This document shows, one piece after another, positions 21,791-62,146 of a stretch of 64,000 nucleotides of DNA. This stretch comes from Trichomonas vaginalis G3 (taxonomy: Eukaryota > Parabasalia > Trichomonadida > Trichomonadidae). The notes beneath the pieces are model-generated. The model searched no databases, was not told the DNA's origin, and saw only the letters and a program-made list of their open reading frames with translations. The position numbers and the translations under genes are program-made. The stretch is taken from the NCBI RefSeq assembly GCF_026262505.1, contig NC_067208.1, positions 7,635,962-7,699,961 of the forward strand. Reading direction: 5' to 3'. Position 1 is the stretch's first letter. The number at the start of each line of letters is the position of its first letter.

Positions 21791-22444
21791 TACTAACTAC
21801 CGTTGGGAAAAATTGAATACCCGAGGTTCAGCATACATATAAAAATGAAAGACTTAGAGCCTAGGGTTAAGCAGGAAGATAGAGGGTACATATGAGATTA
21901 TCCTCAGTAACTCTCAGGCAAATCTGAGTTTTTGGTCAGATATATAAGATTATTGTGAACGAAAAATTATCTAATATAGGCCTAATTGTCATGTGCACAT
22001 ATAGACATATGTATATATTATATGTTTCTTGTGTTATTATAGGTTAAATCCATATTTTGATATGTGAGATAAATTATATCTTAACACAGAAATCGTTTTT
22101 TTATATTATCACAGTAGATATGAGGGGTACTATATGAGTTATAATATATATTATTAGGAATAAGTATATAGATCCAAAATAATGGGAATGCATAATTTAT
22201 GGCGAACTCAAAACATTTATTTTTATATTATGAGGTTATAAAATTGTTTTATTCATATATTATATGTGCTCTGTGCTATTGAAATGTGCTTAAAATGATT
22301 CTGCACGCGCAATCACAAAGCAAAACTTCGTAGCGAGCAACAGTTTGTGCAAGGACAGGGAATTTATATTTTTATCCTTACATAAACTTATAATGTGGTT
22401 AAAATGTTCGGTTTGCTCTCACATTTGTTCCGCACTGTGACATC

Positions 22445-22625
22445 GTGAACAAAGTTTCCGATCTGAGTGCATATATGCAGGGTCTTTCCATGGCACCCTG
22501 CATACATGTACTCAGATCGGGAATATTGTCCACTTTTGTTCCACGATGTGACATCGTGAACAAAGTTTCCGATCTGAGTGCATATATGCAGAGTCTTTCC
22601 ATGGCACCCTGCATACATGTACTCA
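22445..22625. repeat. 112-bp palindromic tandem repeat in MULE fragment
   Basis: Each unit has a hairpin whose arms are CCGATCTGAGT and ACTCAGATCGG around GCATATATGCAGGG/CCCTGCATACATG, and a second small palindrome GATGTGACATC. About 1.6 units. Long ORFs in this stretch on both strands are artefacts of the repeat. Confidence 0.75.
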
Positions 22626-22659
22626 GATAAGAAATTTGCTTAATTGTTTGACATGAATG

Positions 22660-22855
22660 TCACATTCGAAAATCGTTTCTCGAAAGGAGTTTACAATTAC
22701 AATATATTGTCCTATTGTATTGTAATTGTAAACTCCTTTCGAGAAAAGCTTTCACTTTGTGGCACGAATATCACATTCGAAAATCGTTTCTCGAAAGGAG
22801 TTTACAATTACAATATATTGTCCTATTGTATTGTAATTGTAAACTCCTTAGTTCG
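22660..22855. repeat. Two long perfect hairpins
   Basis: Two tandem copies of CGAAAGGAGTTTACAATTAC...GTAATTGTAAACTCCTTTCG, each with arms of about 35 bp around TATATTGTCCTATTG. The second copy's distal arm is cut at ACTCCTTAG. The reverse complement of the same pair lies at 58586-58770. Confidence 0.8.
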
Positions 22856-23004
22856 ATTCCTTCATTTTATTAAATTATAAATATACAATTCTTTCTAATC
22901 TTCCTTTTTCATAATTCATTTCTCATTTAAATTCTAAATAATCTAACTCTACTAATCTAGATTTTTTCTAATATCAATTTTTCATATACAAACTCTTATT
23001 TTTT

Positions 23005-23105
23005 CTCAAAATCTTCCTTCCAACTCCAAATACACCTCTGGCTATTGTTCCCACTGCGGGTAAAAATCTAGATGCGACTCCTGCTAATGCGCCAAATAAA
23101 CCCAT
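23005..23105 (-). pseudogene. Putative minor virion protein, 5' fragment
   Basis: Intact start MGLFGALAGVASRFL, then VGTIARGVFGVGRKIL, cut at 23005 by the MULE junction. It shows the true N-terminus of the gene that is frameshifted at 9759-10167: a glycine/alanine-rich hydrophobic amphipathic segment. Divergent from the integrase gene, 17 bp apart. Confidence 0.65.
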
Positions 23106-23122: not shown

Positions 23123-24082
23123 ATGACGAATCCGAACAAGGACCCCTATGTTTCTAAAGCGACAAAGAAAGCACTCATGATAAAAATCTTTAGTTCAACA
23201 CCAAATGCTTGGTTTATGGATATCTTGGAAAACATTCCGAGGTATAGAGAAGATGGACCACCATACTGGTTAATATTTGTTGGTCAAAACACAAGATACT
23301 GTGAAGCCATACCATTACAGTCCAAAGCTATTTTAGATATCTTAGCAGCTTTGACAATATTCGTTGACAAATACCATCCAACAAAACTGACATCTGACTG
23401 TGAAAGTTCTTTCAAATCAGATGATATTAAAAACTATCTGCGTTCCAAAAATGTAAACCAATATTTCATTGTCGACCAAAACCATTCTGCTCTTGGTGTC
23501 ATTGACGGATGTATAAAAATGTTAAGAGACTTAAACCAACCACAAGGTGGTGAAGCAAATGAAATGTCATATGACGACAAATATAGACACTTCTCCCAGG
23601 CAAAGATGAGACAAGTTTTAAATATTTACAATAACCGTAAACAAAAAAGTTTGGGAAACCACTCCCCCGAAGAAATGAAAAACAACCCTGACTTAGAGAA
23701 AGACTATATATTTAATAATTTAGTCAAAAGAGACAAACAAGAAAGAATGCCGGACTTCAAACTTCAGAAAGGTGATAAAGTAAAAATAGAAATACCTAAA
23801 CGCGACCCATATGAAAATACTATTGACTATGACAACAATGGGAACTCGACAGGTACTCACATTCGTGTTCGTAAAAATAGAAGAAAGTATACAAGAGAAT
23901 ATTATGAAGTTTTAGGCAAACATGGCAAAATGTACACACTGCAAGCAGAAGATAAAACTACTATTGTCAGACCTCGTTTCAAACTTGTCAAAGTTCAAGG
24001 TGGTATACTTTCAAAGACAGTTCCTAACAAATATAAGACAACTCCTGACGAATATGCTAAAGAAGTTGAAAATGACTACTAA
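23123..24082 (+). CDS. Retrovirus-like (rve) integrase of type-I Maverick
   Basis: 319 residues, intact. It should cut the element ends and join them to target DNA. The catalytic core is visible: WFMDILE with Asp33, LTSDCESS with Asp92, and HSALGVIDGC with Asp128 exactly 35 residues after Asp92, where this family usually has Glu. It lacks the usual N-terminal zinc-binding part. The C-terminal 100 residues are basic (HIRVRKNRRKYTREYYEVLG) and resemble the small beta-barrel DNA-binding domain after the core. Convergent with the fibre gene, stops overlapping by four bases. Whether Asp128 supports catalysis is unknown. Confidence 0.85.
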   Translation: MTNPNKDPYVSKATKKALMIKIFSSTPNAWFMDILENIPRYREDGPPYWLIFVGQNTRYCEAIPLQSKAILDILAALTIFVDKYHPTKLTSDCESSFKSDDIKNYLRSKNVNQYFIVDQNHSALGVIDGCIKMLRDLNQPQGGEANEMSYDDKYRHFSQAKMRQVLNIYNNRKQKSLGNHSPEEMKNNPDLEKDYIFNNLVKRDKQERMPDFKLQKGDKVKIEIPKRDPYENTIDYDNNGNSTGTHIRVRKNRRKYTREYYEVLGKHGKMYTLQAEDKTTIVRPRFKLVKVQGGILSKTVPNKYKTTPDEYAKEVENDY

Positions 24083-35672: not shown

Positions 35673-36146
35673 ATGAAACACATGCAAGATTGCAAGTTCT
35701 TTTCATACAATGCTCTCGCTACTGCCATCAAGAATGAGTTCAATAATGCTTCAAATGTTAATGTTATCTTTAACAAGAAGTTTGTGAAAGAATCTAAGTT
35801 TGGTCAGTATGTCAAACCATTAGCTATCGTCATTGACCGCAAACGTTATACTTCACAAGAGTTAGCAGTAGTTTTGAAACAAAAGAGTTTCTTCGTGAAT
35901 GTCAAAGATACTCATTATACTGTCATAAAGAACTCTAACATTGACTTCTTCAGTATTGCTTTAAATCTTTCCGAACAGAAAGAATATAAGAAGGGTGAAA
36001 CAAATGTGAAATATTATCCTTCATCTCTGAAGACAATAACGAACAAAGATGTCATACAAAAGTTCTTACCAAAGGTTGAAGAAGCTTCTATTGACATTGA
36101 CGAAGAAAGTGAAATGGTTGAAGAAATAGACCCTGAAGCTATTTAA
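35673..36146 (+). CDS. Hypothetical Maverick protein, 157 aa
   Basis: MKHMQDCKFFSYNALATAIK..., FGQYVKPLAIVIDRKRYTS and an acidic end (SIDIDEESEMVEEIDPEAI). Divergent from the polymerase gene across 92 bp of A/T DNA. The acidic end is like that of 439-858 in copy 1, next to that element's helicase gene. A single-stranded-DNA-binding role would suit the size and acidic tail, but I see no diagnostic motif. Intact, unlike its neighbours to the left. Confidence 0.65.
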   Translation: MKHMQDCKFFSYNALATAIKNEFNNASNVNVIFNKKFVKESKFGQYVKPLAIVIDRKRYTSQELAVVLKQKSFFVNVKDTHYTVIKNSNIDFFSIALNLSEQKEYKKGETNVKYYPSSLKTITNKDVIQKFLPKVEEASIDIDEESEMVEEIDPEAI

Positions 36147-36284
36147 GCAAAAATATATTTTTGAAGAACTGAAGGTGTCACCACGTCACCATGTGTCACC
36201 AGGTTATTTAACTTCTTTTAAAAATGATGACAACATGACATTTTGACAACAGTCCAGGAAATAAATTTTATCGTTAATGTTTAC

Positions 36285-36727
36285 GTTAATGTTTTTCATT
36301 AAATTTGTCAAAGTGCAAATCTTCACTTCGTCAAAAAGTTAATGTTTTTCATTAAATTTTGTCAAAGTGCAAATCTTCACTTCGTCAAAAAGTTAATGTT
36401 TTTCATTAAATTTTGTCAAAGTGCAAATCTTCACTTCGTCAAAAAGTTAATGTTTTTCATTAAATTTTGTCAAAGTGCAAATCTTCACTTCGTCAAAAAG
36501 TTAATGTTTTTCATTAAATTTTGTCAAAGTGCAAATCTTCACTTCGTCAAAAAGTTAATGTTTTTCATTAAATTTTGTCAAAGTGCAAATCTTCACTTCG
36601 TCAAAAAGTTAATGTTTTTCATTAAATTTTGTCAAAGTGCAAATCTTCACTTCGTCAAAAAGTTAATGTTTTTCATTAAATTTTGTCAAAGTGCAAATCT
36701 TCACTTCGTCAAAAAGTTAATGTTTTT
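36285..36727. repeat. 54-bp minisatellite, about eight copies
   Basis: The unit is GTTAATGTTTTTCATTAAAT, then TTTGTCAAAGTGCAAATC, then TTCACTTCGTCAAAAA. Copies are virtually identical; the first lacks one T. Within each unit TCAAAGTG and CACTTCGTCAAA form an imperfect palindrome. The 18-residue repeating ORF is an artefact, because 54 is a multiple of three. Confidence 0.9.
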
Positions 36728-36729
36728 GG

Positions 36730-36945
36730 TTAGTCTTCATATCGATATTTTACAACAGTTCCCCAATGTATAAACTTTTCATACGCTTTTTCATAAGCTT
36801 TATATACCTTCAGAAATTTTGCATAATCTTTAGAAGCATTTAGATATTGTTTAAATGCTTTATATACCTTCAGAAATTTTGCATAATCTTTTACATGTTG
36901 TTCGTTCTCTTCTTCTGTCATGAGTTCCGAATATTCTAAATTCAT
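36730..36945 (-). CDS. Small internally repeated protein, 71 aa
   Basis: MNLEYSELMTEEENEQHVKD, then two copies of DYAKFLKVYKA (an exact 39-bp duplication plus flanks), ending KFIHWGTVVKYRYED. Helical, charged. No family recognised. It begins right beside the minisatellite, so local duplication seems frequent here. Could be expressed behind the TTTTATTTTTTTATAAA leader. Confidence 0.5.
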   Translation of the reverse strand: MNLEYSELMTEEENEQHVKDYAKFLKVYKAFKQYLNASKDYAKFLKVYKAYEKAYEKFIHWGTVVKYRYED

Positions 36946-36999
36946 GTTCTTTCATATGAGATAAAATTTTATAAAAAAATAAAATTAGCTTAGATTTTT

Positions 37000-37827
37000 T
37001 TATTCTTCCTCTTTGAAGTTATCGAAATATTCTGTTATTTTTTCCTTCAGTAATGTTAAGTCTTCTTTGAATGTAAGTATTGTGCAACCTTTGATGTCAT
37101 AGTGTGTTTGAGGAAGAGTATTTTTGACAATTTCTTTTATTTGCTCATTCGGTGTCATTGAAATCGGTAAGTTTTCACGATAGAACCAATTTCTGTCAGA
37201 TTTGTAAATCTTAGCAAGGTCATAAAAGCTCTTGTTGTTTCTTCTGACTAAATGCAACATAACCATATCTCTATCTTCTTCTTTCTCCAACTCTTCAGTA
37301 TATATCATATACTTATAACTCTTTTCCTTTCCTTTTGGTACTGAACGTGGTATTCTTTTCTGTATGCTTTTGTCTTTGGATTCAATGACTTCATCTTTTG
37401 CTTGAAGTTTCTTTTCCATCTCTCCACGTTCTGCTTTATATAGTTCATCTAACATCATGAAAATATAACAAGCATAACGAGGTGAAGCCCACATTGCTAC
37501 AGCATTTACTAAAAGTCTATGAACATAATAACCTTTCAAACCAGGTGCCAAATTCTTGCGATTTTCGTACGGAATCTCTTCCCTCGGTTTTCCGAGGGAA
37601 GCAATCATATGAGGAAATTCTTCTAAAAGTTCTTTTGCCTGTTGGTTTTCAAACCAATGATATGCTTGCTTTGTAGAAAGAAGAGCGTTCATTATACTTT
37701 GCATTTGGTACATATCGTCTTTGACCGAACGAATGAGACGTAACTGTTTGTTATACTGTATGTATTCGTATTCTTCATTTATGGCTTCATGAACGATAGC
37801 AGTTGTTGTGTTCTCTGATGTTGACAT
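37000..37827 (-). CDS. KilA-N domain protein
   Basis: 275 residues from MSTSENTTTAIVHEA. YYVHRLLVNAVAMWASPRYA is the KilA-N core; a charged coil (EMEKKLQAKDEVIESKDKSI) and a conserved C-terminal domain (RRNNKSFYDLAKIYKSDRNW, LPQTHYDIKGCTILTF) follow. Closely related to 2253-3077 in the type-I element, although the rest of these Mavericks is very different, which points to exchange of this gene. The one divergent stretch (between FENQ and ENRK) carries the palindrome TCCCTCGG/CCGAGGGA in the coding sequence. Confidence 0.85.
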   Translation of the reverse strand: MSTSENTTTAIVHEAINEEYEYIQYNKQLRLIRSVKDDMYQMQSIMNALLSTKQAYHWFENQQAKELLEEFPHMIASLGKPREEIPYENRKNLAPGLKGYYVHRLLVNAVAMWASPRYACYIFMMLDELYKAERGEMEKKLQAKDEVIESKDKSIQKRIPRSVPKGKEKSYKYMIYTEELEKEEDRDMVMLHLVRRNNKSFYDLAKIYKSDRNWFYRENLPISMTPNEQIKEIVKNTLPQTHYDIKGCTILTFKEDLTLLKEKITEYFDNFKEEE

Positions 37828-37849
37828 TTCTGTCTTTACATACAAAATA

Positions 37850-38190
37850 AAAAAATAAATAAAAATAAAACTAACTTTATTTTTCTGTGATAAAGAAATG
37901 TTAAAAATTCATGGTTACATATGTGAAAAGAAGTCACGAACAAATGAAGGTCATAAGATTCAGCACATAATTCTGAATTGAATGGTGTGTCATACATGTC
38001 AAACCGTCAAGAATTGAAGGAGATACGAGGCTATAAAGATTTTGGATATTTTCTGACACACACCCTGAGGGAAAAGTGACAAAACACGACGATAGAAAAA
38101 GTGACAAAATGGGAGAAAGTTGTTCCCCGACCAAAATGCAATCATGTTGAAAAAGTGACATTTGTAAAGTTGGACGATAGGATTTCCTGA
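37850..38190. other. Intergenic DNA with GTGACA boxes
   Basis: No credible gene. Contains three or more AAAAGTGACA phrases (near 38077, 38099 and 38151), one with a following TTT. Long minus-strand ORFs here run into the repeats at 38194 and are not supported. Confidence 0.5.
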
Positions 38191-38193
38191 AAA

Positions 38194-38426
38194 AGTGCAA
38201 GACTTGTCTTGAATCAGGACAAGATTTGTCTTGAAAAAATACAAGACTTGTTCTGAAAAAATACAAGACTTGTCTTGAATCAGGACAATTGTTCTCAAAT
38301 TTGAGAACTTTACAAGAAAAACTGACTAAAAAGTGCAAGTCTTGTTCTGAATCAGGACAAGATTTGTCTTGAAAAAATACAAGACTTGTTCTGAAAAAAT
38401 ACAAGACTTGTCTTGAATCAGGACAA
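38194..38426. repeat. Duplicated CAAGACTTGTCTTG palindrome cluster
   Basis: A block of about 95 bp with phrases GTGCAAGACTTGTCTTG, AATCAGGACAAGATTTGTC and AAATACAAGACTTG is present twice (about 38194-38288 and 38331-38426). Each is a mosaic of small palindromes. No gene. Confidence 0.75.
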
Positions 38427-38662
38427 AACTTTACAAAATGTAAACCTTACATAACCGTTTCTATCGTACATGATATTTAGTTGACATTGTAAACTATCTT
38501 CATGTAAAGTATGGCGGTTTGAAACCGTCGGGAACCTTCACTTTTTTGACGAACTTTCCGCAGCAATTTTTGGAATTTTGTGAAAACTCAACGGTTTGAC
38601 ACATGCCATATGTCATTTTACTCAGAATTTTGTGCTGAATTCAGCAAAAATAATGAGTTCAT

Positions 38663-39325
38663 TTACTCACAATATTTTTGTACAAAACGACCCCAAACTT
38701 TTAACTTCTTTTCTGCAGTTTCTAATGCTATCTTAGCGAGTTCATATTCTCTAAATTCTCTCTTTAAATCTTCTTGTTCCCATTGGTCTAGTTCGTATGG
38801 AGAGTCTCTATAACCATAATATATCTCACGTTCATGTTCTAATTGTTTTTCGCACATTTTTCTAACTTCTTCTTCAAACAAATGTTTTGCATTCTCTACT
38901 GTATCTTCGAGTTCTTCTTCATCTAACTTCTCATGAACTTTCTTGTCTATGGAATCCATAATTTTTCCAACTGCTATGCAATATTTTGGAGAAGCCCACA
39001 TTGCTATATAGTTTATAAGTCTTGCGTCTACATACGTTCCTCTAACCTGTTTGATTTCATCAGGAATTCCTGCATGAATTTTGTATAAAAAGCAACCGCC
39101 GGAATTCAGACGGTTGCTATATTCTTCACAAAATGCCTTATAATACTCTTCCCAGGACTTATTTTCCAACAACTTTCTAAAGTCTTTCCTAAACTGCTGA
39201 CACATATTTGTTGCATTTATATAACCATCCTTGTCTCTACGTAAGACTTCAATACCGTTATAAGTGCCTTTTGTGAATGTTTCGCCATTATATTTGTTAG
39301 TGAATGTTTTTGCTTCGACTGACAT
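38663..39325 (-). CDS. KilA-N domain protein, second type
   Basis: 220 residues. The N-terminus has the textbook KilA-N element DGYINATNMCQQFRK (residues 34-48), followed by a WEEYYKAFCEEYSN helix and IAMWASPKYCIAVGKIMDS. The C-terminus is a long charged helix (KHLFEEEVRKMCEKQLEHE). KilA-N proteins bind DNA in large DNA viruses and phages; the target here is unknown. It shares its upstream leader (AACTTTATTTTT side) with the neighbouring KilA-N gene and with 39493-40431. Intact. Confidence 0.88.
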   Translation of the reverse strand: MSVEAKTFTNKYNGETFTKGTYNGIEVLRRDKDGYINATNMCQQFRKDFRKLLENKSWEEYYKAFCEEYSNRLNSGGCFLYKIHAGIPDEIKQVRGTYVDARLINYIAMWASPKYCIAVGKIMDSIDKKVHEKLDEEELEDTVENAKHLFEEEVRKMCEKQLEHEREIYYGYRDSPYELDQWEQEDLKREFREYELAKIALETAEKKLKVWGRFVQKYCE

Positions 39326-39427
39326 TTCTGTTCTTACCTACAAGATAAAAAGTTAGAAAAAAATAAAACTAACTTTATTTTTTTCTATCTTAAGGAAATT
39401 CATTATTTTTGTGTTGAATTCAGCAAA

Positions 39428-39485
39428 AATATATTTTAGGGTAGATGGTTAGATCTAACCTCATTTCTACCCTCATTTCTACCCC
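39428..39485. repeat. AGATCT-centred palindrome
   Basis: TAGGGTAGATGGT-TAGATCTA-ACCTCATTTCTACCC and a further CTCATTTCTACCCC, between two same-strand genes. Confidence 0.8.
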
Positions 39486-39492
39486 AGTTATT

Positions 39493-40431
39493 TTATAAAC
39501 ATTTTACATGATATACGTTATGAATTCGTGAGATTCTAAACAGTTTTGTAGCTTCTATTTCTTCTTTTAGTACATCGAATGTTTTAACAATGCCGAAGGT
39601 TTCTTTATACTTCTTCTTGACGTCAGATAATAGGAAATCGTCAGCAGTTGGATAGTTTTTGTTCAGAAATGCTAACATGTCCATTTTATCTTCTGCTGGT
39701 TTCTCTACTTCTTTCTTTAAGTCAGCATAGTCGTTTCTCATACGTTCTATCTCTTTGACGGAGTAGTTATATTTCCTCATTGCTGCTTTACATTTAGAAC
39801 ATTGTGGATTCATTTTTGCGTTATACATTGAAATTTGACCTGCTAGAACAACTAAGGCGTCAATGGTTTTCTTTAACTCAAAAGCAGTTGGTTTTATCTG
39901 TTCATTCCATACCTTACCTCTTCTATCTTTATCTCTTATCTGCCATACACATTCTGCAACTAATGAAACAAAGTTGTCGTATGTCTTAAATTCTTCGGAT
40001 TTATATATGTCAGAGATGTTCTTATATACCATGTCGCAATCTTTGTCCATAACTTTATGGTTGCAATGATATCCTAGAAACTCATAATTTACTTTACGTA
40101 TGAACTTCTTTATTTCTACTGAGTCAGTTGGTTTCACTTCTATTTCATCGAATTCATGAATAGTGAGCTTTTGTTGTTGGATTTCAGGCAATTTGGGTAA
40201 ATGGTCAATAATGTCCTGCATGTCATAAAGATATTCTTCATTTTCTTCATCCTGTGCGGTACAGTCTAAATTACTTGTTAAAAGTTCTTGCTTTATCTTC
40301 TGGATTTTTGTTTCAAAAGTATATGAAGAAGGAATAAAGCTTTTCATCTCTACTAACATAGATGTTGGATTCATGACTAACGAATTTGGTGCTGTTGTTT
40401 GAATTGTTGTTGTGCCGATTGTTGAAATCAT
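39493..40431 (-). CDS. Hypothetical protein, 312 aa
   Basis: Start set at MISTIGTTTIQTTAPN, by analogy with the STxxTTT starts and shared leader of the KilA-N genes; an upstream ATG would add a hydrophobic stretch read from that leader. Middle: CDMVYKNISDIYKSEEFKTY and a possible metal site CSKCKAAMRKYN. C-terminus: YPTADDFLLSDVKKKYKETF, which looks like a winged-helix end similar to that of D5-type helicase C-domains. No family is certain; probably DNA-related. Confidence 0.6.
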   Translation of the reverse strand: MISTIGTTTIQTTAPNSLVMNPTSMLVEMKSFIPSSYTFETKIQKIKQELLTSNLDCTAQDEENEEYLYDMQDIIDHLPKLPEIQQQKLTIHEFDEIEVKPTDSVEIKKFIRKVNYEFLGYHCNHKVMDKDCDMVYKNISDIYKSEEFKTYDNFVSLVAECVWQIRDKDRRGKVWNEQIKPTAFELKKTIDALVVLAGQISMYNAKMNPQCSKCKAAMRKYNYSVKEIERMRNDYADLKKEVEKPAEDKMDMLAFLNKNYPTADDFLLSDVKKKYKETFGIVKTFDVLKEEIEATKLFRISRIHNVYHVKCL

Positions 40432-41860: not shown

Positions 41861-43756
41861 TCATTGAACGCGGTACCATGCAAATACAGTCACAAATGGT
41901 GGCATGTAATCTGCACCCGAGCCTGTTGGATTTGTTGTGAAAGTATGGACATGATTTCCTCCTGGTTCAGTTGGTCGAAAAGTCTTTTTTGCTGAATTGT
42001 TATAAGATGGAGATAAAACATCATTGCCAGCTTTATATTCTGAGTTGTATAATGGATGGTCTCGTAATGAGTGGCTATGGTCGCCAGAAAAGTTTGTCGT
42101 TCCTGTATGAGTGTGCGGTGGAAGGTTTGCTTCAGTAATTTTCTTCGAACCTCCTGTTTGCTTTGAAGAGTTAGCACAGTATAAGAATTTGTCTACAATC
42201 TGCTGCCATGTACCAAAACCTAAAACTGTTGCTGGATTTGTTGAGTTCATTGACGTATAAATAGAGCCTATAGGATATAATGTTTCAAGAATCTGAGTCT
42301 TTAATGTTTGAAGCTCTGTTTTGTCTGCTTTCTTGTCTAACATTGCGGGTAGTTCATATGCTTCAAAGTTTCTGGCATGATCTTCGATATTCCTGCAACT
42401 CTTATCTAAATTGTTAAGAGTATCTTTTACGCTTGTACTCGGATTCTCTAATGGTGCACTTGAACCAAGGTCAAAGTTCAATATTATGTCGTCTGCTCTA
42501 ACAGTAGTAAAGTCTGCTTTCTTAAGTATTTCTTGAATGTATGCAATGAGAACAGAGTACCTTGGAAAATATTCGAACAATATTTCATTAGCTGTTGGTT
42601 TTGGTGGTTCTTCTGGAGTTTCTGTTGTTTCAGTTCCTTCTGGAGTTTCTGTTGGAGTTTCTGCATCTCTTGACTTCAATGCTCTTGCTCTCAAAGACCT
42701 AAATGTTAGAGCACCGGGTTTTACAAAGGACTTTATAAATGCTTTAATAGTTCCTGGTAAGTTATTGTTAGCATTAAGTAAGTTCCTTATGCTTCCATCA
42801 TGTACGTCCATAGCACTATGTAAAAAATCTATACTTTTCTTGTAGTCAGCAATAGACTGACTGTGATTTTTTAAAGATTTATCAATACCTTTAAGCCAAT
42901 CTTCATGCATGTCTGATACTGAGCCAAGAATATCATTTGCTTCCTTTAGTGTATTTTGTGCTTCTCGTAAAGTATCCAATCCCGTACGTGCATTGTTTGC
43001 TATACGTCTTACAGTATCTATTTGACTCCTTGTTTCTTGCATCCAACCAGATAAAGTTTTAATAGTATCCGAACCATTTGAAATGAAGTTCAAAGCATTT
43101 TTAACGTCATCTAAAACTTCTTCACCAAGTACTGCCCATATCTTTCCGATTTGGTATTGAAGAACTCCATATGAAGCAGCTGTTAAACCAGTATTTATAA
43201 GGTTCCATATCCATGATTTAGCAGTTTTTCCATCCTTTCCATCCTTTCCATCCAAACCGTTTTCGCCTTGAGGTCCTTGTATTCCTTGTATTCCTTGTAT
43301 TCCTTGTGGTCCTTGTGGTCCGGTGTCACCCTTCTCTCCTTTCAGTTCATCTTTATGTTCGTTATAATATTCTAATGTCATAAGGTGTACATCATTACTG
43401 CTACCAGCAACGCCGAGAATTTGTTTCTCATTCATGACTAAATTCTTTAGGCATTTAATGTTGTCGTCAAATCGAAAGCTCTTTAACAATTCAATGAGAA
43501 CATTCAGTACTTTCACTAATGAGGCATCTACTGTAGAATTTATATATTGCACCGTTCCATCATTTATGATAGGAACTTTACTTATTGTAATGAATGGGTC
43601 ATAAGTGTTAAAAGTATCGAAATCAATGACTTTTTTAGTTTTTCCATCGTCAATGACTAAATCATTGCCTTCAATGGTTAAAGTTGAGTTTTCATTTACT
43701 AGTTCATGTGCTCTTCTTGCTTCATTTGTTTCATACGCATATGCAGCAATAGTCAT
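41861..43756 (-). CDS. Collagen-like fibre with phage-type collar domain
   Basis: 631 residues, intact. Residues about 140-177 are Gly-X-Y repeats (GDTGPQGPQGIQGIQGIQGP), which should form a collagen-like triple helix. A long helical shaft follows, then a proline-threonine linker (TPTETPEGTETTETPEEPP). The C-terminal 140 residues have LYPIGSIYTSMNSTNPA, FGTWQQIVDKFLYC, NLPPHTHTGTTNF and YMPPFVTVFAWYRVQ, the tail-collar/baseplate gp10-type end of phage fibres. Likely the host-attachment spike of the particle. It ends inside the palindrome CGCGTTCATTGAACGCG. Divergent from the 43774 gene across 17 bp. Confidence 0.85.
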   Translation of the reverse strand: MTIAAYAYETNEARRAHELVNENSTLTIEGNDLVIDDGKTKKVIDFDTFNTYDPFITISKVPIINDGTVQYINSTVDASLVKVLNVLIELLKSFRFDDNIKCLKNLVMNEKQILGVAGSSNDVHLMTLEYYNEHKDELKGEKGDTGPQGPQGIQGIQGIQGPQGENGLDGKDGKDGKTAKSWIWNLINTGLTAASYGVLQYQIGKIWAVLGEEVLDDVKNALNFISNGSDTIKTLSGWMQETRSQIDTVRRIANNARTGLDTLREAQNTLKEANDILGSVSDMHEDWLKGIDKSLKNHSQSIADYKKSIDFLHSAMDVHDGSIRNLLNANNNLPGTIKAFIKSFVKPGALTFRSLRARALKSRDAETPTETPEGTETTETPEEPPKPTANEILFEYFPRYSVLIAYIQEILKKADFTTVRADDIILNFDLGSSAPLENPSTSVKDTLNNLDKSCRNIEDHARNFEAYELPAMLDKKADKTELQTLKTQILETLYPIGSIYTSMNSTNPATVLGFGTWQQIVDKFLYCANSSKQTGGSKKITEANLPPHTHTGTTNFSGDHSHSLRDHPLYNSEYKAGNDVLSPSYNNSAKKTFRPTEPGGNHVHTFTTNPTGSGADYMPPFVTVFAWYRVQ

Positions 43757-53858: not shown

Positions 53859-55229
53859 ATGGATTATAAATTTAATGCAGAAAGTTCAAAAAGCATCATA
53901 CATGATAATGAAAAAATTGATAACCAAGAAAATATAGATGAAAAGGAACCTGTAGATAGCGAAGTTCTACAAAATTTGATTGAAAAATTTCATCAAGATT
54001 TAGATGAAGGAAATCCAGAAGAATCAGTTCAAAATTTTGCAAATTTAATAGAGATGACTCATAATTTCCTTATCGAAAAGGAAATATATTTAAATTTACT
54101 CAAAACAAATTTTATTGAAGATATAATTGACTTTTTAATGATGTTTGATGACAACAGAGATATTGTAAATGATGTGTTAGTACTAATTCAGAATCTTCTT
54201 ACTCAAGATATTTTGATTATCGATAATTTAGTTGAAAATTCGGGATTAGAGCCAATACTTAACATAATTTCATCAACAGATGATGATAATATTGCATTGC
54301 AATGCTTAATGATTATTAAAATTGCATTAGTAAGCGAAAAGGCCCAAATTATTTTAGATACAACACAATTTCCAGATTTAATTGATAATTTACTTCAGAA
54401 ATTCGATAGATATGAGATACTAATAGAGTCTGCATCGATTATAGATGTTTCTATTGCACATTTACAAAAAATGAAAATTCAATTTTTCATTTTAGGTCTG
54501 AAATTCTTTGATTTCATAAAGGGTATATCAGATGATGAACTTTCGAATACTCTTTACGATAAAATTTTAGGTTCTCTTGAAAATTTTTCATTTTCTAGTT
54601 GTAAGAACGTTATTTGGCTTCTTGAAAACAATATCATTGGATTCTGTTTCTCGGAGATACCAAATATATCTCCAATTTTCATTGGAAGAATTTTATTAAT
54701 TTTGGTTGGAATATTTAATTCATTTCCGCAGTTTATTACTGATGAAGAAAGCGAAAGCAGTCATAATATAAGAGAGAACATGCGACAAGTAGCAAATCAG
54801 CTTCCAATCGATGAAATAATTAAATTATTTGATTTATTTATTTCAGAAGCTGACGTTAAATCGGTTGGAGTAGCTTTAACGCTATTAGAACTTGCTGTAC
54901 AATATGATGAATCCATTTTTCTCCATCTTTTGGAAAAAGATTTTTCAGAAAAATTTCAGGATTTAATGATTAACACTCCAAATAAGGTCAAGATATATTG
55001 CATTCACTTTTTATATGAATGCATGCCTTATTTCGCGAGTTCTATTGTTAATTCCCTGATAAATGAAGAAATTGTTGAAATTTTTGAAAATTTAATCGAA
55101 AGTGATGTCGAACTCTCAGAGAAAGTATTCCAGATTTGCTTATCCATATATAATCTCATCGATTCTGACTCTCCAATGAAGGAAATTCTGGATAATATCA
55201 TTGATCAAAATTATTCTGCATCAGAATAA
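53859..55229 (+). CDS. ARM/HEAT-type helical repeat protein, 456 aa
   Basis: After an acidic N-terminus (about 45 residues) the chain is a series of amphipathic helix pairs: IEDIIDFLMMFDDNRDIVND, LEPILNIISSTDDDNIALQ, FLHLLEKDFSEKFQDLM, consistent with armadillo-like repeats and protein binding. The opening helix set (LIEKFHQDLDEGNPEESVQN) resembles many trichomonad ARM proteins. No specific family recognised. The start MDYKFNAESS lies 23 bp after AAAAAGTGAC, the box also found before Maverick genes; an earlier ATG four bases upstream is out of frame and stops at once. Confidence 0.8.
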   Translation: MDYKFNAESSKSIIHDNEKIDNQENIDEKEPVDSEVLQNLIEKFHQDLDEGNPEESVQNFANLIEMTHNFLIEKEIYLNLLKTNFIEDIIDFLMMFDDNRDIVNDVLVLIQNLLTQDILIIDNLVENSGLEPILNIISSTDDDNIALQCLMIIKIALVSEKAQIILDTTQFPDLIDNLLQKFDRYEILIESASIIDVSIAHLQKMKIQFFILGLKFFDFIKGISDDELSNTLYDKILGSLENFSFSSCKNVIWLLENNIIGFCFSEIPNISPIFIGRILLILVGIFNSFPQFITDEESESSHNIRENMRQVANQLPIDEIIKLFDLFISEADVKSVGVALTLLELAVQYDESIFLHLLEKDFSEKFQDLMINTPNKVKIYCIHFLYECMPYFASSIVNSLINEEIVEIFENLIESDVELSEKVFQICLSIYNLIDSDSPMKEILDNIIDQNYSASE

Positions 55230-55694: not shown

Positions 55695-56192
55695 TTGAAA
55701 AAAATATGAACATCTGATTGGGGAAAAAATTGAGAAGTTTACAAGTCAAAAGGAAGTATTTCATAGTTCCAAGTCGGCTGATTCTGTTTGGAAACTCTTT
55801 TATGAAACAGATCCTATTTCAGAACCTTTCGCTGGAAAGATTGTTACAGAATCATCAACAGAAAACGAGAGTTTCATCTTTCAATGTGTTTTCGTCAAAA
55901 TCATCTTTAATAGTGCCATTTTCTTTGAAAGATCAGGTAATAAGTTTCTTAACTCATATTGTTCATTTAATGACTGCAGTAGTAATACAAAAGGTGGATC
56001 TATCTATTTTCAATGTGATAGTTCCATTGTCCAATACCGAACATGTAGCTACAAATCAAAAACAAGCTCTGAAGAAGGGCATTTTTCATATATTAAATTA
56101 GTTGATGAATCAAATAATAAAAATTATCTTTATGAAAGTTCATTTTGTGCATGCGGAAATTTAGAAAAATCTCAAATAATTAGTCTTTATTA
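55695..56192 (+). pseudogene. Cysteine-rich repeat surface-type family, copy 3, 5' part
   Basis: Open frame YEHLIGEKIEKFTSQKEVFH..., then DSVWKLFYETDPISEPFAGK and GGSIYFQCDSSIVQYRTCSY, up to SLY at 56190, where the MULE begins. No convincing start codon, so the 5' end may also be lost. Continues at 59760. The family has beta-helix-like repeats with regularly placed Cys; closest to the copy at 17950. Confidence 0.55.
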
Positions 56193-56984
56193 GAGGCGTG
56201 CTGAACCGTTGGGTGGAAATTGAATACCCACACTTCAGCATGGACCCTTCTGATGGAGATAGACCCAACATGTATATGGATGAATATTAGGACATTAGGT
56301 ATAGATGAACATATATAGGAATGAGGACCACCTTGGGTCAGCATCAGATATCGAATTTTAGAACCATCTAATTTTCATTCAATATTCTATAAGTGCAATG
56401 TATGTTTCCTATATATAAAGGTTTGATAATAGTTAGGTCTCAATATAGATCTTTGGTCCCAATTTATATTATGAATATCATCAATTTGTGTGTTTTTAAC
56501 ATTATATATTAGTATTGTGTTGATATAATGCTATATTATGTAGTGGTAGGTGTGTCTTGATATAAATTATGTTATTGATCGGGATATGAGTACAAATGCA
56601 AGTTATCCCGGGGTGAGGTCAGGGCTATCGCGTCCTAATTCATAGGGAAGGGTTATCATGCCTAGTATGTGTGTGTTGTGCTATCCGTTTGTCCATTGGA
56701 TGGCACAGCACACACAATCACAAGACAAAACCTCGAAGCGAGGAACAGTTCTTGTAAGGATGTGGTAACTATATACCTATTCTTACAAGAACTTGTATAG
56801 TGGAGCAATGTTTCGAATTGCTCCACTTTTCCTCCCATCGAGGTTATCCCGAGGTGAAGTCATAGCAATGGGGCTCATATTGATGGTGCACCATTGCTAT
56901 GACTTGCACCTTCGTATGGTACTATCCATTATGAATTTTGAAATAATTTTGCAATTGAAATAATCTTAAATTTAACAAAAAAGG

Positions 56985-58300
56985 CCGAGAAGGGGGTCCT
57001 TTCTCAAGGTCAGGGCCCCCTTCTAGTCTTTCTGGTGTCGGAAGGAGTGGCTTTTTCCAGTATTGCCGCTCCTTCCGGCATCATCTTTGCATTTCGCAAT
57101 TGTCGCGGCAAGTGCATTCTGGCACCACAGGTGCACTTGCCGCGACATATGATTGCGAGTGTCTGCTGCTCAGCCCCGGATTCGCAGCAGACACTCGCAA
57201 TGCGAACCAAAGTTCGCCAGAAAGACCGGGAAGGGGGTCCTTTCTCAAGGTCAGGGCCCCCTTCTAGTCTTTCTAGAACTGTAATTTGACTTATTTTGCC
57301 GAATCTCAGGGAAAACCGTCCGTGATTTGAACGATCTACTGAGATTCGGCAAATTTGATTGTAAGCGAGGCTCTGGCCTTTGCTTGGGCCAGGGCCTGTA
57401 TTTGTATGTCTTTCAGGGCCGAGTTCCTGCGAGACCGTCGACATGATCGACGATCATCGCAGAACTCGGCCCTGAGGATGAATTTTGCAGGCTCTGGCCT
57501 TTGCTTGGGCCAGAGCTTCGTATTTTCTACTTCCCAGGGCCGGATTCCACTCCTGCCGCCCGGGATAAGGGCGGCATTTGGGAAAGCCGGCCCTGGGGAA
57601 TGTAAGCCATGCCCTGGCCTTTGCTATGGCCAGAGCCTGTATTTGTATGTCTTTCAGGGCCGAGTTCCTGCGAGACCGTCGACATGATCGACGATCATCG
57701 CAGAACTCGGCCCTGAGGATGAATTTTGCAGGCTCTGGCCTTTGCTTGGGCCAGAGCTTCGTATTTTCTACTTCCCAGGGCCGGATTCCACTCCTGCCGC
57801 CCGGGATAAGGGCGGCATTTGGGAAAGCCGGCCCTGGGGAATGTAAGCCATGCCCTGGCCTTTGCTATGGCCAGAGCCTGTATTTGCATGTCTTTCAGGG
57901 CCGAGAAGAGAGGAGATCGCCAATGATGTGGACGATCTCCCTCAAACTCGGCCCTGCGGATTGTATTTACAAGCTCTGGCCTCGGAAAAGGCCAGAGCTT
58001 CGTATGGACGTTCTCTCGGGACTGGATTCCTCTCCGGCCGCCCCGAATCAGGGCGGTCTTTGAGGAAACCGGCCCCGAGGATTGTTTGCGAAGCTCTGGC
58101 TTTTCCTGAGGCCAGAGCTTGTGATTTTCGTTCAAAGCCAAGTTCCTCTCGGATCAGGCCTAATGAGGACGGCCGTCGAGGAACTTGGCTCTGAGGGGAT
58201 GAATTGTTGGCTCTGGCCTCGATGAAGGCCAGAGTTTTGAATGGAATGTTTTGATGGGATGAGCCTATGAGCAGTAAGCTCGTCCCATCAAAACATTCGT
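56985..58300. repeat. GC-rich hairpin array
   Basis: At least fifteen consecutive perfect or near-perfect hairpins separated by 10-25 bp. Short ones share GCTCTGGCC-TTTGCTT-GGCCAGAGC; longer ones between them have arms such as CAGGGCCGAGTTCCTGCGA, TGTCGCGGCAAGTGCA and ATTGCGAGTGTCTGCTGC. A unit of about 240 bp (57369-57608) is repeated at 57609-57848. In an A/T-rich genome the GC content is striking. Long ORFs on both strands here are by-products of the stop-poor GC palindromes. Confidence 0.85.
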
Positions 58301-58572
58301 TTAAAAATTGAATTAAAAATTATCGTAGGCATTCAAAAATTAAAACAATTAATATGTAGAATATTATTATGTAATAATAATAGAATAAAATATATATAAA
58401 ATTATGTAAAATTTTCAAAAAATATTGGAAAATGGAATTTTGAAAGAAAAAATAAGAGTTTGTATATGAAAAATTTAGATTAGTAGAGTTAGATTATTTA
58501 GAATTTAAATGAGAAATGAATTATGAAAAAGGAAGATTAGAAAGAATTGTATATTTATAATTTAATAAAATG

Positions 58573-58790
58573 AAGGAATCGAACTAAGGAGTTTACAATT
58601 ACAATACAATAGGATAATATATTGTAATTGTAAACTCCTTTCGAGAAACGATTTTCGAATGTGACATTCGTGCCACAAAGTGAAAGCTTTTCTCGAAAGG
58701 AGTTTACAATTACAATACAATAGGACAATATATTGTAATTGTAAACTCCTTTCGAGAAACGATTTTCGAATGTGACATTCATGTCAAACA
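58573..58790. repeat. Two long A/T hairpins
   Basis: AGGAGTTTACAATTACAAT arms of about 35 bp twice, with the CGAGAAACGATTTTCGAATG linker; mirror of 22660-22855. Confidence 0.85.
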
Positions 58791-58804
58791 ATTAAGCAAA
58801 TTTC

Positions 58805-59117
58805 TTATCTGAGTACATGTATGCAGGGTGTCATGGAAAGACCCTGTATATATGCACTCAGATCGGAAACTTTGTTCACGATGTCACATCGTGGAACAAA
58901 AGTGGACAATATTCCCGATCTGAGTACATGTATGCAGGGTGTCATGGAAAGACCCTGTATATATGCACTCAGATCGGAAACTTTGTTCACGATGTCACAT
59001 CGTGGAACAAAAGTGGACAATATTCCCGATCTGAGTACATGTATGCAGGGTGTCATGGAAAGACCCTGTATATATGCACTCAGATCGGAAACTTTGTTCA
59101 CGATGTCACAGTGCGGA
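58805..59117. repeat. 112-bp palindromic repeats, three copies
   Basis: Unit starts at about 58807, 58917 and 59029, each with a CTGAGTACATGTATGCAGGG/CCCTGTATATATGCACTCAG hairpin and a GATGTCACATC palindrome. The older-looking copy at 22445 has two units. Confidence 0.85.
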
Positions 59118-59759
59118 ACAAATGTGAGAGCAAACCGAACATTTTAACCATATTATAAGTTTATGTAAGGATAAAAATATAAATTCCCTGTCCTTGCACA
59201 AACTGTTGCTCGCTACGAAGTTTTGCTTTGTGATTGCGCGTGCAGAATCATTTTAAGCACATTTCAATAGCACAGAGCACATATAATATATGAATAAAAC
59301 AATTTTATAACCTCATAATATAAAAATAAATGTTTTGAGTTCGCCATAAATTATGCATTCCCATTATTTTGGATCTATATACTTATTCCTAATAATATAT
59401 ATTATAACTCATATAGTACCCCTCATATCTACTGTGATAATATAAAAAAACGATTTCTGTGTTAAGATATAATTTATCTCACATATCAAAATATGGATTT
59501 AACCTATAATAACACAAGAAACATATAATATATACATATGTCTATATGTGCACATGACAATTAGGCCTATATTAGATAATTTTTCGTTCACAATAATCTT
59601 ATATATCTGACCAAAAACTCAGATTTGCCTGAGAGTTACTGAGGATAATCTCATATGTACCCTCTATCTTCCTGCTTAACCCTAGTCTCTAAGTCTTTCA
59701 TTTTTATATGTATGCTGAACCTCGGGTATTCAATTTTTCCCAACGGTTCAGCACGATAC

Positions 59760-60333
59760 TCTTTATTATGGAAATATTGAAATTAAGTCAATCAACACAA
59801 GTTTCTGTGAAGCATTTAAAGACTCTGGACTTCGTCTAGAAAATCCGACAAGTCTATGCAACGTATCATATTCATCATTTTATAATACCACATCAAATTA
59901 TTCAATCTTGGCTGTAATTGATCGCCAAATCAGTGGTAACTTTGATTTTAAGCTTTGTAATATTTTGAATAATGACTGTATAGAACCTGATTATGGAATA
60001 TTTTATTCATATGGATCATATGTTCTTTTTGAAAACTGTTCATCTCTTGGAAACACAGGACCAGGAGTAGAATTTTATGAAGATTATATTGGTTCAATTA
60101 TAATTAAAGATTCTTTCTGTGACAGAAAATATAATACATATAGAAATGTTGAACTAAGTAATGTGAAAAATACATATTCTATTCTTTATCTTTCTCACTT
60201 TTCATTATATATGTGTGAAGCAGAGTTTCATATTTTAGAGAGAAAAAAGAATTGTATCACGTGTCATGAAATTGTTTATCATTATTCGCATCATTTCGTT
60301 ACTTCTTTTTGTATTGTTTTAGTAAAGAAATAA
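59760..60333 (+). pseudogene. Cysteine-rich repeat surface-type family, copy 3, 3' part
   Basis: After the duplicated TCTTTATTA the gene resumes (YGNIEIKSINTSFCEAF...), with FKLCNILNNDCIEPDYG and CSSLGNTGPGVEFYEDY, and ends HHFVTSFCIVLVKK, a hydrophobic end as in the other copies. The frame is open from the junction to the stop, so apart from the MULE this half is undamaged. Confidence 0.55.
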
Positions 60334-60342
60334 AATCTGTAA

Positions 60343-61387
60343 TGCATGAAAAATAGCGTGACTTCATTTTTGACAGTTTACAAATGTAAAGTGTTGCATC
60401 CTTAAAAACTTGGAAATATATACATTCATGAATTATCTTGTATATTAATTGAAAATCCATAAAACCCTAACAATATTTTTTCTTAAAAAAAACTATAAAA
60501 ATATAAATAAAATTAATCGTTAAATAAAAATATTTGATATTAGAATTTTATTGGAAAAATAAAAAACTTAATATTTTAAAGAAATACTTAAATACTTGAA
60601 TGTTTTAACTTTTACATTATCATATAGACTCTCAAATTATTAGCCATTTTGGCTGAGAACTATGGTCTGCGAGGTACATAGATAGAATCAGTACCTCGCA
60701 GACTATAGTTCTCTATATGGCGCCGAAAATTTTTGGTGAAATGTCGTCGCATTTCATCAAAAATTTTTCGGCGCCATAGGAAGAATTGGAGGGTGTGAGA
60801 TACTATTACATGCTATAGTACTCACACCCTCCAACTCCCAATCAAAATCGCATAAAATTTGCTACTTATCTTCAGATTACCTCCCATTATAAAATATATC
60901 ATTGCTATCTCATTGTACTATATTTCCACCCTATTGTATTTAAAAATATAAAATTTTTTGATAATATATTTTTATATCTTGAATTTTCAAACAATATATT
61001 CACAGATAATATAATGGGAAATCTATCTCAACCTAGCCTTAAAGTACCAAACTCCTGCTTGCATTCTCACTCACAAATATTAAACATCCATCTCCAAAAA
61101 ACTAAATTCTTCACAATTTTTTTAAAATTGAGAACATAAAAAACGTATGCATTCAATAATTTAAGATACTAACAAATATTAAAAACTTCAAAATATCAGA
61201 TATTAACGTTTTTCAATTAAAAAAAATATCATTTTGCTTTTCAATTCGAACATAAATCTTAAATATTTTTAATTAATATCTGATTTACAGCATTATTATC
61301 CATTTATAAATCTGACAAATAAATGACAAAACCATCAGAAATAGTATCACTTTTTGTCAAAAGTGAAGTCACGCTATTTTTCATGCA
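60343..61387. mobile_element. Small hairpin-bearing inverted-repeat element
   Basis: Ends TGCATGAAAAATAGCGTGAC and its mirror, extending about 30 bp, define 1,045 bp. Inside are three perfect hairpins in a row: 60654-60716 (GAGAACTATGGTCTGCGAGG arms), 60717-60778 (TATGGCGCCGAAAATTTTTG arms) and 60787-60835 (GGAGGGTGTGAG arms). The remainder is A/T-rich and has no gene. Flanking target duplication is not clear. The hairpin style matches the MULE at 56193. Confidence 0.65.
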
Positions 61388-61389
61388 CA

Positions 61390-62146
61390 ACACAAAAAGT
61401 GTTTCAAAATTCTGAATATCGTTCAACCTGCCAAAAATTCAGTACCAAAAGGAAAAACAAAATACGAAGCAGTATATATAAACTTAATATGGCATGTCGA
61501 TATTCATTTTTTAAACATCGTCAGGGTGAATATCTTTATGCGGTTATTGACGATAAATCCCGAAAAATTTTAGCATGGGCTCACTTGGAAACAAAAGAAG
61601 CTGCGCAAACAAGTAGAGTAATTGACCAATGTTTCCAAAAATATGGGAAGCCCTTTGCTATATGGAGTGATAACGGAACAGAAAATTTTGGGTTTTTTCG
61701 AAATTTATTACAAAATGCGAACGTTCAAAGTATTACAATTCTCCCACATTGCCCATATATGAATGGGAAAATTGAAAGGTTTTGGCAAAATGTGGAAATT
61801 GAAGACGCCACATGGAATGATATACAAAGTCTTATAGAAAATTACAATTCAAACCCACACACAAGTTTACCAAAAAAACCGGCATTACATACATGGTACA
61901 CACCTAACAAATTTTACGAAATTTCAGAAAAATATGATTCAAGTAAATTACCGCTTTGGATTGTAGATGGAGTTGTTAAAGAACTAAGAGAGTCAATAAG
62001 AAATTTCAACGCTTCAAGAAGGAATCAAAGAAATTGACGAAGTTCCAGAATTTTATTCAACAATTCTTAATCAATTAACAAAAACTATACCGAAACTTAT
62101 CTTACCATCCAAATCAAATCACATTACATACGGAATAAACATTTAA
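61390..62146 (+). pseudogene. DDE (rve-type) integrase/transposase gene, frameshifted
   Basis: The first frame gives VPKGKTKYEAVYINLIWHVD with the first catalytic Asp. A one-base shift in the T/A run near 61518 enters GEYLYAVIDDKSRKILAWAH, then IWSDNGTEN and CPYMNGKIERFWQ, giving Asp and Glu 34 residues apart. A second shift near 62015 leads to KEIDEVPEFYSTILNQ and a stop at 62146. The 5' end is cut at the small inverted-repeat element. It resembles IS3/IS481-like integrase-core families rather than the Maverick integrases here, which lack the Glu. Element termini not found. Confidence 0.65.

Follow-up and report, generated by a model that had tools for sequence, protein, structure and literature searches.

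A gene-less, MULE-like transposon of Trichomonas vaginalis with a hairpin core shared by families with different ends

Introduction

The Mutator-like elements (MULEs) of Trichomonas vaginalis, called TvMULEs, have terminal inverted repeats (TIRs) of 20-38 bp and target site duplications (TSDs) of 9-11 bp (PMC6446971), the TSDs being given as 10-14 bp in the original paper (PMC2725143), which also describes an unidentified repeat of this species. The T. vaginalis repeat families of PMC7845603 include 43,572 entries labeled 'Repeat unknown', and 29.89% is unclassified in the IR-78 repeat annotation of PMC12589397. In this study, we analyzed a 64,000-nucleotide stretch of the T. vaginalis G3 genome (NC_067208.1, positions 7,635,962 to 7,699,961, forward strand), referred to as the window, which contains a gene-less, transposon-like element largely made of hairpins.

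Hairpin-forming DNA is known in several other forms. Sponge mitochondrial hairpin elements and double hairpin elements are short single units, and in Foldback elements two long ends pair mutually. Template switching in inverted repeats has two published signatures, homogenization of the arms and inversion of the spacer (PMC8604942, PMC8794818). The element described here combines TIRs and TSDs with a hairpin core in which such signatures are directly seen, and related families carry this core between different ends.

Results

A gene-less element rich in hairpins

The locus had been singled out by a prediction made from the letters of the window alone (the original prediction), which described a GC-rich MULE with 9-bp duplications, matched ends and no gene, composed of more than twenty perfect palindromes and tandem units of 240 and 112 bp. 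Its coordinates (56193-59759) and duplications, TCTTTATTA on both sides, proved exact. The matched ends were borne out as imperfect TIRs, which by eye are alike over about 48 bp with mismatches and share the 17-mer CGTGCTGAACCGTTGGG; the 5' TIR also contains, by eye, the inverted motif TGCTGAA...TTCAGCA. The absence of a gene was borne out as well: we found no transposase in the element, and its longest stop-to-stop frame, 164 codons, lies inside the repeat array. A search of window positions 56000-60000 with Rfam gave no family at gathering score; the 32 sub-threshold matches were chiefly to microRNA models, with SmY at 29.3 of 39 bits.

Using a symmetric, strand-neutral finder, we observed 21 non-overlapping hairpins (score at least 20) in a 3595-bp stretch, whereas six dinucleotide shuffles gave 0, 0, 0, 1, 1, and 0. 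Among 15 other stretches of the window, 13 held 1-5 hairpins and the remaining two held 7 and 12, the former including a truncated second copy of the element's family. The predicted perfection of the palindromes does not hold, as only 4 of the 21 are perfect (3 of 18 at a score of at least 24, with a mean arm identity of 87%). When folded in silico with a span of at most 160, the element reached a minimum free energy of -1474 kcal on the + strand and -1376 kcal on the - strand, against about -580 to -830 for ten background stretches without GC matching; one more stretch, the eleventh, overlaps the element and reached -1015/-909. Long TIRs that pair mutually, as in Foldback elements, were not found, the TIRs being about 48 bp and the hairpins local.

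The tandem units measured 241 and 111 bp, so the predicted lengths were each off by one. "GC-rich" applies to the middle, with 45% GC over 56001-58000; the whole element has 41%, and other 2-kb stretches of the window range from 25 to 43%.

Near-identical copies at many insertion sites

The first 208 bp of the element matched 22 places in the genome at 99-100% identity (one match spanning only 115 bp), and the last 257 bp matched 26 places at 94-100%. Among the fetched copies of this family, named A, seven have identical flanks and are therefore duplicates of one insertion. Sixteen copies retain both ends, which correspond to 12 insertion sites because five of them occupy a single site. A TSD was present at 11 of the 12: 10 bp long at eight, 11 bp (as printed) at two, and 9 bp in the window, while L020 had none.

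Copies differ in their unit number. The 111-bp unit ranges from a few copies to roughly 25 (in L014, as estimated from BLAST spacing), and for most other family-A copies the overlapping alignments fit one 241-bp unit fewer. All 21 family-A copies that keep the conserved hairpin block (module M2, Table 1), namely the window copy and L009-L028, carry the hairpins, so that no block-retaining copy without palindromes was encountered; L048 lost the block through an internal deletion.

As a separate observation, family-A 5' and 3' ends also occur 43 kb apart on contig C6 (17129821-17173169) and 47 kb apart on contig C32 (152250-198808), with no nearer partner. Nested insertions would be the simplest reading of these pairs, which might otherwise mark a much larger relative.

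The core is shared among families with different ends

We searched the genome with the core (57360-58340) and scored 40 of 201 candidates. Cores outside family A were 81-91% identical in this search, and 19 such loci were fetched; their longest core alignments showed 76-90% identity, rising to 86-93% within the block. Two groups were distinguished by their TIRs. Group E/F (L038, L039, L041, L045-L047, and L050) has the TIR GAGTCGATACGAAAAGCAGA and a 9-bp TSD in 7 of 7 elements, that of L039 being a T-run. Group D (L036, L037, L040, and L049) has the TIR GGGACGAACTTTAAATTG, and the TSDs of its three scored elements (not L040) are 10, 10, and 12 bp as printed, the 12 including a boundary shift. 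TIRs and TSDs were thus established for groups A, D, and E/F, and not for L029-L035 and L042-L044.

Comparison of family A with L038, L039, L041, and L045-L047 gave no BLAST match between the outer parts at E 1e-3, whereas the core and the 111-bp units matched. Conservation between A and E/F lies in the non-coding middle and not at the ends, which is the opposite of the usual pattern. By eye, the families have in common a terminal pattern (GAGGCG / GAGTCG / GGGACG), which may be a remnant of shared ancestry.

A 29-mer from the core had 157 genome matches at up to 3 mismatches (control, 0) and no exact match in a viral contig set. One arm of the upstream module M1 was found at 306 places with at most 1 mismatch, and the 100 listed places often form +/- pairs spaced by 31-32 bases. 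Among 40 scored candidates of 210, M1 was also detected at loci that lack the element's 5' part, and several M1 loci were absent among 100 of the 157 core places listed; on this sequence evidence, M1 may occur independently of the core.

We also noticed a long array at 310-838 kb of contig C5, with units of about 6.3-6.8 kb, in which a family-D hairpin element lies in successive units (among 100 of 128 TIR places listed). Ribosomal DNA was considered and rejected, as Rfam showed no rRNA, nor any other match at gathering score, in the one unit read (L049). Apparently, a hairpin-element insertion was incorporated into an amplified unit.

One quasi-palindrome was corrected in both directions

Correction of arms was seen in the hairpin at 57896-57958. 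In 17 of 21 aligned rows, it carries 5 to 13 mismatches in the 24 outer positions (the 13 of L023 being due to a one-base insertion), and in four rows none. In L013, six adjacent changes have made the right arm the exact complement of the left, and the hairpin has become perfect as a result; other family-A copies still have the older form, to which L027 has added one change. In L045-L047 the same hairpin was corrected in the opposite direction, the left arm being matched to the right, and likewise in L050; L045-L047 additionally show a C-G to A-U double change. Further, exact loop inversions were found between three pairs of close copies (L036/L037, L038/L039, and L045/L047). The L013 correction was spotted by eye in the alignment and then verified; it is absent from the lists of the automatic cluster tests described below. 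With multi-base changes that match one arm to the other and exact inversions of loops, both signatures of template switching are present, and the process is directly visible in the two opposite corrections of one quasi-palindrome and in the inverted loops.

In 1190 directional tests of mutation clusters (at least 10 nt), the reverse complement of nearby sequence accounted for 15, the reversed sequence for 2, and the complement for 0. These tests are pairwise and non-independent, and the matches come down to 8 distinct cores, two of which, matches of 10 nt in A and F, are not long enough to be taken as events. A change cluster in L026 that resembled a flip was discarded as a misalignment of homopolymer length.

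Correction is real but not constant, because most rows keep their mismatches. Within a molecule, 7-15% of the arm positions in the block are non-Watson-Crick (G.U counted as mismatch), at least as many as the 6.8% stem-column divergence between family representatives, a figure obtained from 10 of the 21 rows, chosen by hand, with a structure from the same alignment and hence partly circular. The original prediction of ongoing arm correction by hairpin-templated copying accordingly holds for L013, L045-L047, and the three loops, but not as a constant process, with 17 of 21 rows uncorrected.

Stems of the block are conserved

We aligned 21 of the 25 distinct block sequences, omitting the near-copies L021, L010, L017, and L027 of family A, and picked roughly one representative for each family or subfamily. 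When the window copy alone supplied the stems and nine other representatives, chosen by hand from the 21 rows, were compared, divergence was 0.077 in stems and 0.196 in unpaired positions, i.e., 2.5 times lower in stems, and 0 of 430 rotations were as extreme. AT and GC stem columns were alike in conservation (0.063 and 0.071), although this test, like that giving 6.8%, used the 10 hand-chosen rows and the partly circular structure. Across the 21 rows, 98.2% of the cells were paired, compared with 29-48% when the structure was slid. Double-changed cells numbered 28 against 9.1 in shuffles, and covariation was 0.049 against 0.025, neither being reached in 500 shuffles (0/500 each); related rows inflate such pair counts.

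If the pairing took place in RNA, G.U would be expected to exceed A.C on one strand. We counted 271 G.U against 156 A.C in 204 distinct hairpins, with the same direction in 18 of 19 elements. As proof of RNA this excess was rejected, being pseudo-replicated, not significant per hairpin cluster (a test of low power), and missing from the block, where 13 versus 14 pair columns showed no strand bias. RNAalifold gave -180 for the + strand of the block and -170 for the - strand. Taken together, these results support a constraint on pairing, and the strand test does not distinguish RNA from DNA. Of the selection for structured RNA that had been proposed, the structure finds support in stem conservation, while the RNA does not in the wobble counts.

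Relation to MULEs

Two features agree with an assignment to MULEs. The TSDs, at 9 bp in the window copy and in E/F, mostly 10 bp in family A as a whole, and 10 bp in D, lie within the 8-11 bp of MULEs in the wider sense, and the TIRs are short, the imperfect 48 bp or so lying slightly above the range of TvMULEs. The label given in the original prediction finds support in these two features and in nothing beyond them. Since an autonomous partner was not found, we term the element MULE-like rather than a proven MULE.

A search with the TIR of the window copy yielded 45 matches at up to 1 mismatch, which coincide one by one with 5' or 3' ends of family A, and 7 further matches at 2 mismatches, every one of them CATGCTGGACCGTTGGG. 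At two lone E/F ends (C4:4828311 and C5:32331748; spans C4 4828311-4832959 and C5 32326706-32331777), a PF10551 (MULE) frame lies 4.4 and 4.7 kb inward, and further pattern search gave no matching far end at either locus. We regard these frames as a lead to a possible autonomous partner, not as a link.

Other features of the window

The positions of the element's parts and of neighboring features are collected in Table 1. Open frames flank the element on both sides, the right one with a sub-threshold beta-helix match, so the insertion may interrupt a gene of the beta-helix type. Further downstream, a frame with an integrase core domain probably belongs to another mobile element adjoining the hairpin element. 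A protein search using the frame at 53859-55226 gave no match. Elsewhere, two proteins carry phage baseplate Gp10_C domains in this eukaryotic genome, one of them together with phage tail repeats and the other with a collagen-like stretch.

Table 1. Positions in the window of the element, its parts, and neighboring features
Feature	Position	Strand	Remarks
Transposon-like element	56193..59759		3567 bp
Left TSD	56184..56192		TCTTTATTA, 9 bp; repeated at 59760-59768
Right TSD	59760..59768		TCTTTATTA, 9 bp
5' TIR	56193..56241	+	GAGGCGTGCTGAACCGTTGGG..., about 48 bp, imperfect; read by eye
3' TIR	59712..59759	-	GTATCGTGCTGAACCGTTGGG... (given on the - strand); read by eye
Hairpins of the 5' part (four)	56668-56716, 56747-56793, 56799-56827 (perfect), 56852-56911		Hairpin finder
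Module M1	56980..57340		Similar stretches at other loci without the element's 5' part, some loci doubled in tandem
Hairpins of M1	56988-57024, 57033-57083, 57101-57147 (perfect), 57152-57201 (perfect), 57219-57274
241-bp unit	57360..57905		2.3 copies; hairpin order per unit short, long, short, long
Conserved hairpin block (module M2)	57890..58320		21 aligned rows, several element families
Quasi-palindrome	57896..57958		Independent corrections: L013; L045-L047 group
Two AT-rich hairpins	58586..58765		Arms AAGGAGTTTACAATTACAATA, first one perfect; hairpin finder
111-bp hairpin unit	58807..59126		2.9 copies in the window element
Second family copy	21799..23012	-	5'-truncated before the block; 111-bp units at 22420-22628
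Open frame, left flank	55699-56193
Open frame, right flank	59719-60333		Beta-helix PF13229, sub-threshold, 20.4 of 25.9 bits
Frame with integrase core domain	61345-62037		rve, PF00665
Stretch with 12 hairpins	36001-39595
54-bp array	36285-36727		8.2 copies, 99%
44-bp array	38188-38431		Palindromic units
66-bp unit	25166-25553		5.9 copies, 100% identity; inside open frames of both strands
Gp10_C protein	24079-26079	-
Gp10_C protein	41861-43756	-

The terminal 19-mer of the 'unknown repeat' in PMC2725143 was also looked up. It occurs 385 times in the genome (control, 0), often doubled 29 bases apart; by eye, opposite-facing places among the 100 listed lie about 1.4 kb to 73 kb apart, a spacing which hints that the same ends are borne by both small and very large elements.

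Discussion

We think it rather probable that the element is a non-autonomous TIR transposon that was active recently and has a palindrome-array core, repaired by template switching and kept by selection for pairing. It would be mobilized in trans, most likely by a transposase of the Mutator-like (TvMULE) type, and would be one of several families with a common non-coding hairpin core and differing TIRs. The array would alter through gain and loss of 241-bp and 111-bp units. Its arms would occasionally be re-matched when a quasi-palindrome is being replicated and the template changes to the opposite arm, by which loops would flip too, and beyond mutation, selection would hold the core stems pairable, acting through an RNA transcript or single-stranded DNA. 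Insertions with TSDs at many sites, the lack of a gene, the common core, the corrections and loop flips, and the conservation of stems are all observed; we infer a transposase acting in trans and its superfamily, selection as what conserves the stems, and a role for the core.

Several results weigh against this explanation. The TSDs of 9-10 bp fit only the low end of the range in PMC2725143, because 10-14 bp is given there. No transposase or autonomous relative was found, and by coordinates no PF10551 match lies between two matching TIRs (150 of 687 PF10551 candidates scored, TIR patterns at 2-3 mismatches, 100 of 128 TIR places listed). Of the 1190 cluster tests, more are accounted for by forward repeats (22) than by the reverse complement (15), and a stricter run on 414 clusters attributed 9 to the reverse complement, 15 to forward repeats, and 0 each to the reversed and complement sequences. 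Mismatches persist in the stems, so correction is far from complete. Double-changed pairs number only 7 of 104, a value reached by 25 of 500 shuffles, and the 20 further pair types were reached by 88 of 500. Finally, with hairpins clustered, G.U exceeded A.C in 10 of 16 clusters, with 3 opposite and 3 ties (Wilcoxon p 0.21), in a test of low power because the clusters are coarse, the two largest holding 83 and 53 of 210 hairpins.

On a further reading, the core itself would be a mobile, selected structural module of RNA or single-stranded DNA that several families share, or that has outlasted their ends; constraint would then lie on a non-coding structure, the TIRs having turned over. We put this forward only tentatively.

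It is likewise possible, if doubtful, that the transposon bears its core as a gene for a structured non-coding RNA, or as a source of double-stranded RNA for a small-RNA pathway. The better folding of the + strand, both in the whole element and with RNAalifold in the block, would suit this, as would the conserved stems and the predominance of G.U in 18 of 19 elements prior to correction for relatedness. PIWI-like Argonautes and small RNAs of 34 nt are present in T. vaginalis, and its repeats are matched by small-RNA reads (PMC7845603). An RNA core is opposed by the wobble bias, which loses significance on clustering (with the low power noted above) and is lacking in the block, and by the absence of an Rfam family at gathering score.

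A purely mutational origin of the array seems to us unlikely. Template switching and slippage would then both make and repair the palindromes, and a functionless core would be shared by recent descent or recombination. The signatures of template switching are direct, unit number varies freely, and M1 occurs without the element's 5' part, all as this account would have it. By reasoning, however, neutral arm correction alone should not slow divergence between families, yet stems are 2.5 times less diverged, and the equal conservation of AT and GC stem columns speaks against GC-biased repair alone, albeit in a partly circular test.

More improbable still, the hairpins could function at the level of DNA, in single-stranded or cruciform shape, and aid amplification by serving, for instance, as signals for transposase or replication. 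Conserved stems and the non-significant strand bias of the wobbles are consistent with this, and the TIRs themselves hold an inverted motif by eye; on the other hand, cis signals of transposons are ordinarily carried by the TIRs, and it is the TIRs that differ between families. An assembly artefact from inverted reads or chimeras is very unlikely, for although palindromes are a known difficulty in sequencing, other families show the structure too, and so do 21 copies of family A, of which seven duplicate one insertion; TSDs are clean at 11 of the 12 insertion sites of family A, in 3 D elements, and in 7 E/F elements.

On the favored explanation of a template-switched core under selection, the locus matters in two respects. 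Non-autonomous transposons usually conserve their ends and leave the middle free, and here the reverse holds between families; a conserved middle with differing ends therefore suggests that non-coding structure has a function in mobile DNA. In addition, the families form a natural record of quasi-palindrome correction and loop flipping by template switching. Both directions of correction occur at one hairpin, so that the weight of mutation versus selection in hairpin pairing becomes measurable.

The original prediction knew of no described element of this design, and our searches of paper listings likewise showed no such description; an entry in Repbase, which was not covered, is possible. Among known systems, TvMULEs (PMC2725143, PMC6446971) are similar in their short TIRs, TSDs of about 10 bp, and near-identical copies. 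They differ in being 2.1-3.0 kb long with one intronless transposase gene, whereas the hairpin elements are gene-less and consist largely of hairpins, and none of their TIRs was matched to a transposase-bearing element. Foldback elements and the Mutator/Foldback element Tm1 of root-knot nematodes (PMC3169594) resemble them in 9-bp TSDs, richness in inverted repeats, and non-autonomous members; unlike the present element, with short TIRs and a middle full of local hairpins, Tm1 has composite terminal repeats made of tandem units. The hairpin-forming elements of sponge mitochondria (PMC2800124) are also mobile, repetitive, and divergent in structure and composition, but they reside in mitochondrial DNA, while here a TIR-bearing transposon flanked by TSDs carries a whole array, on contigs of chromosome size. 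Template-switched inverted repeats (PMC8794818, PMC8604942) show the same homogenization of arms and inversion of spacers, or loops; they are known from RNA genes and yeast coding sequence, and here they are found in families of transposons.

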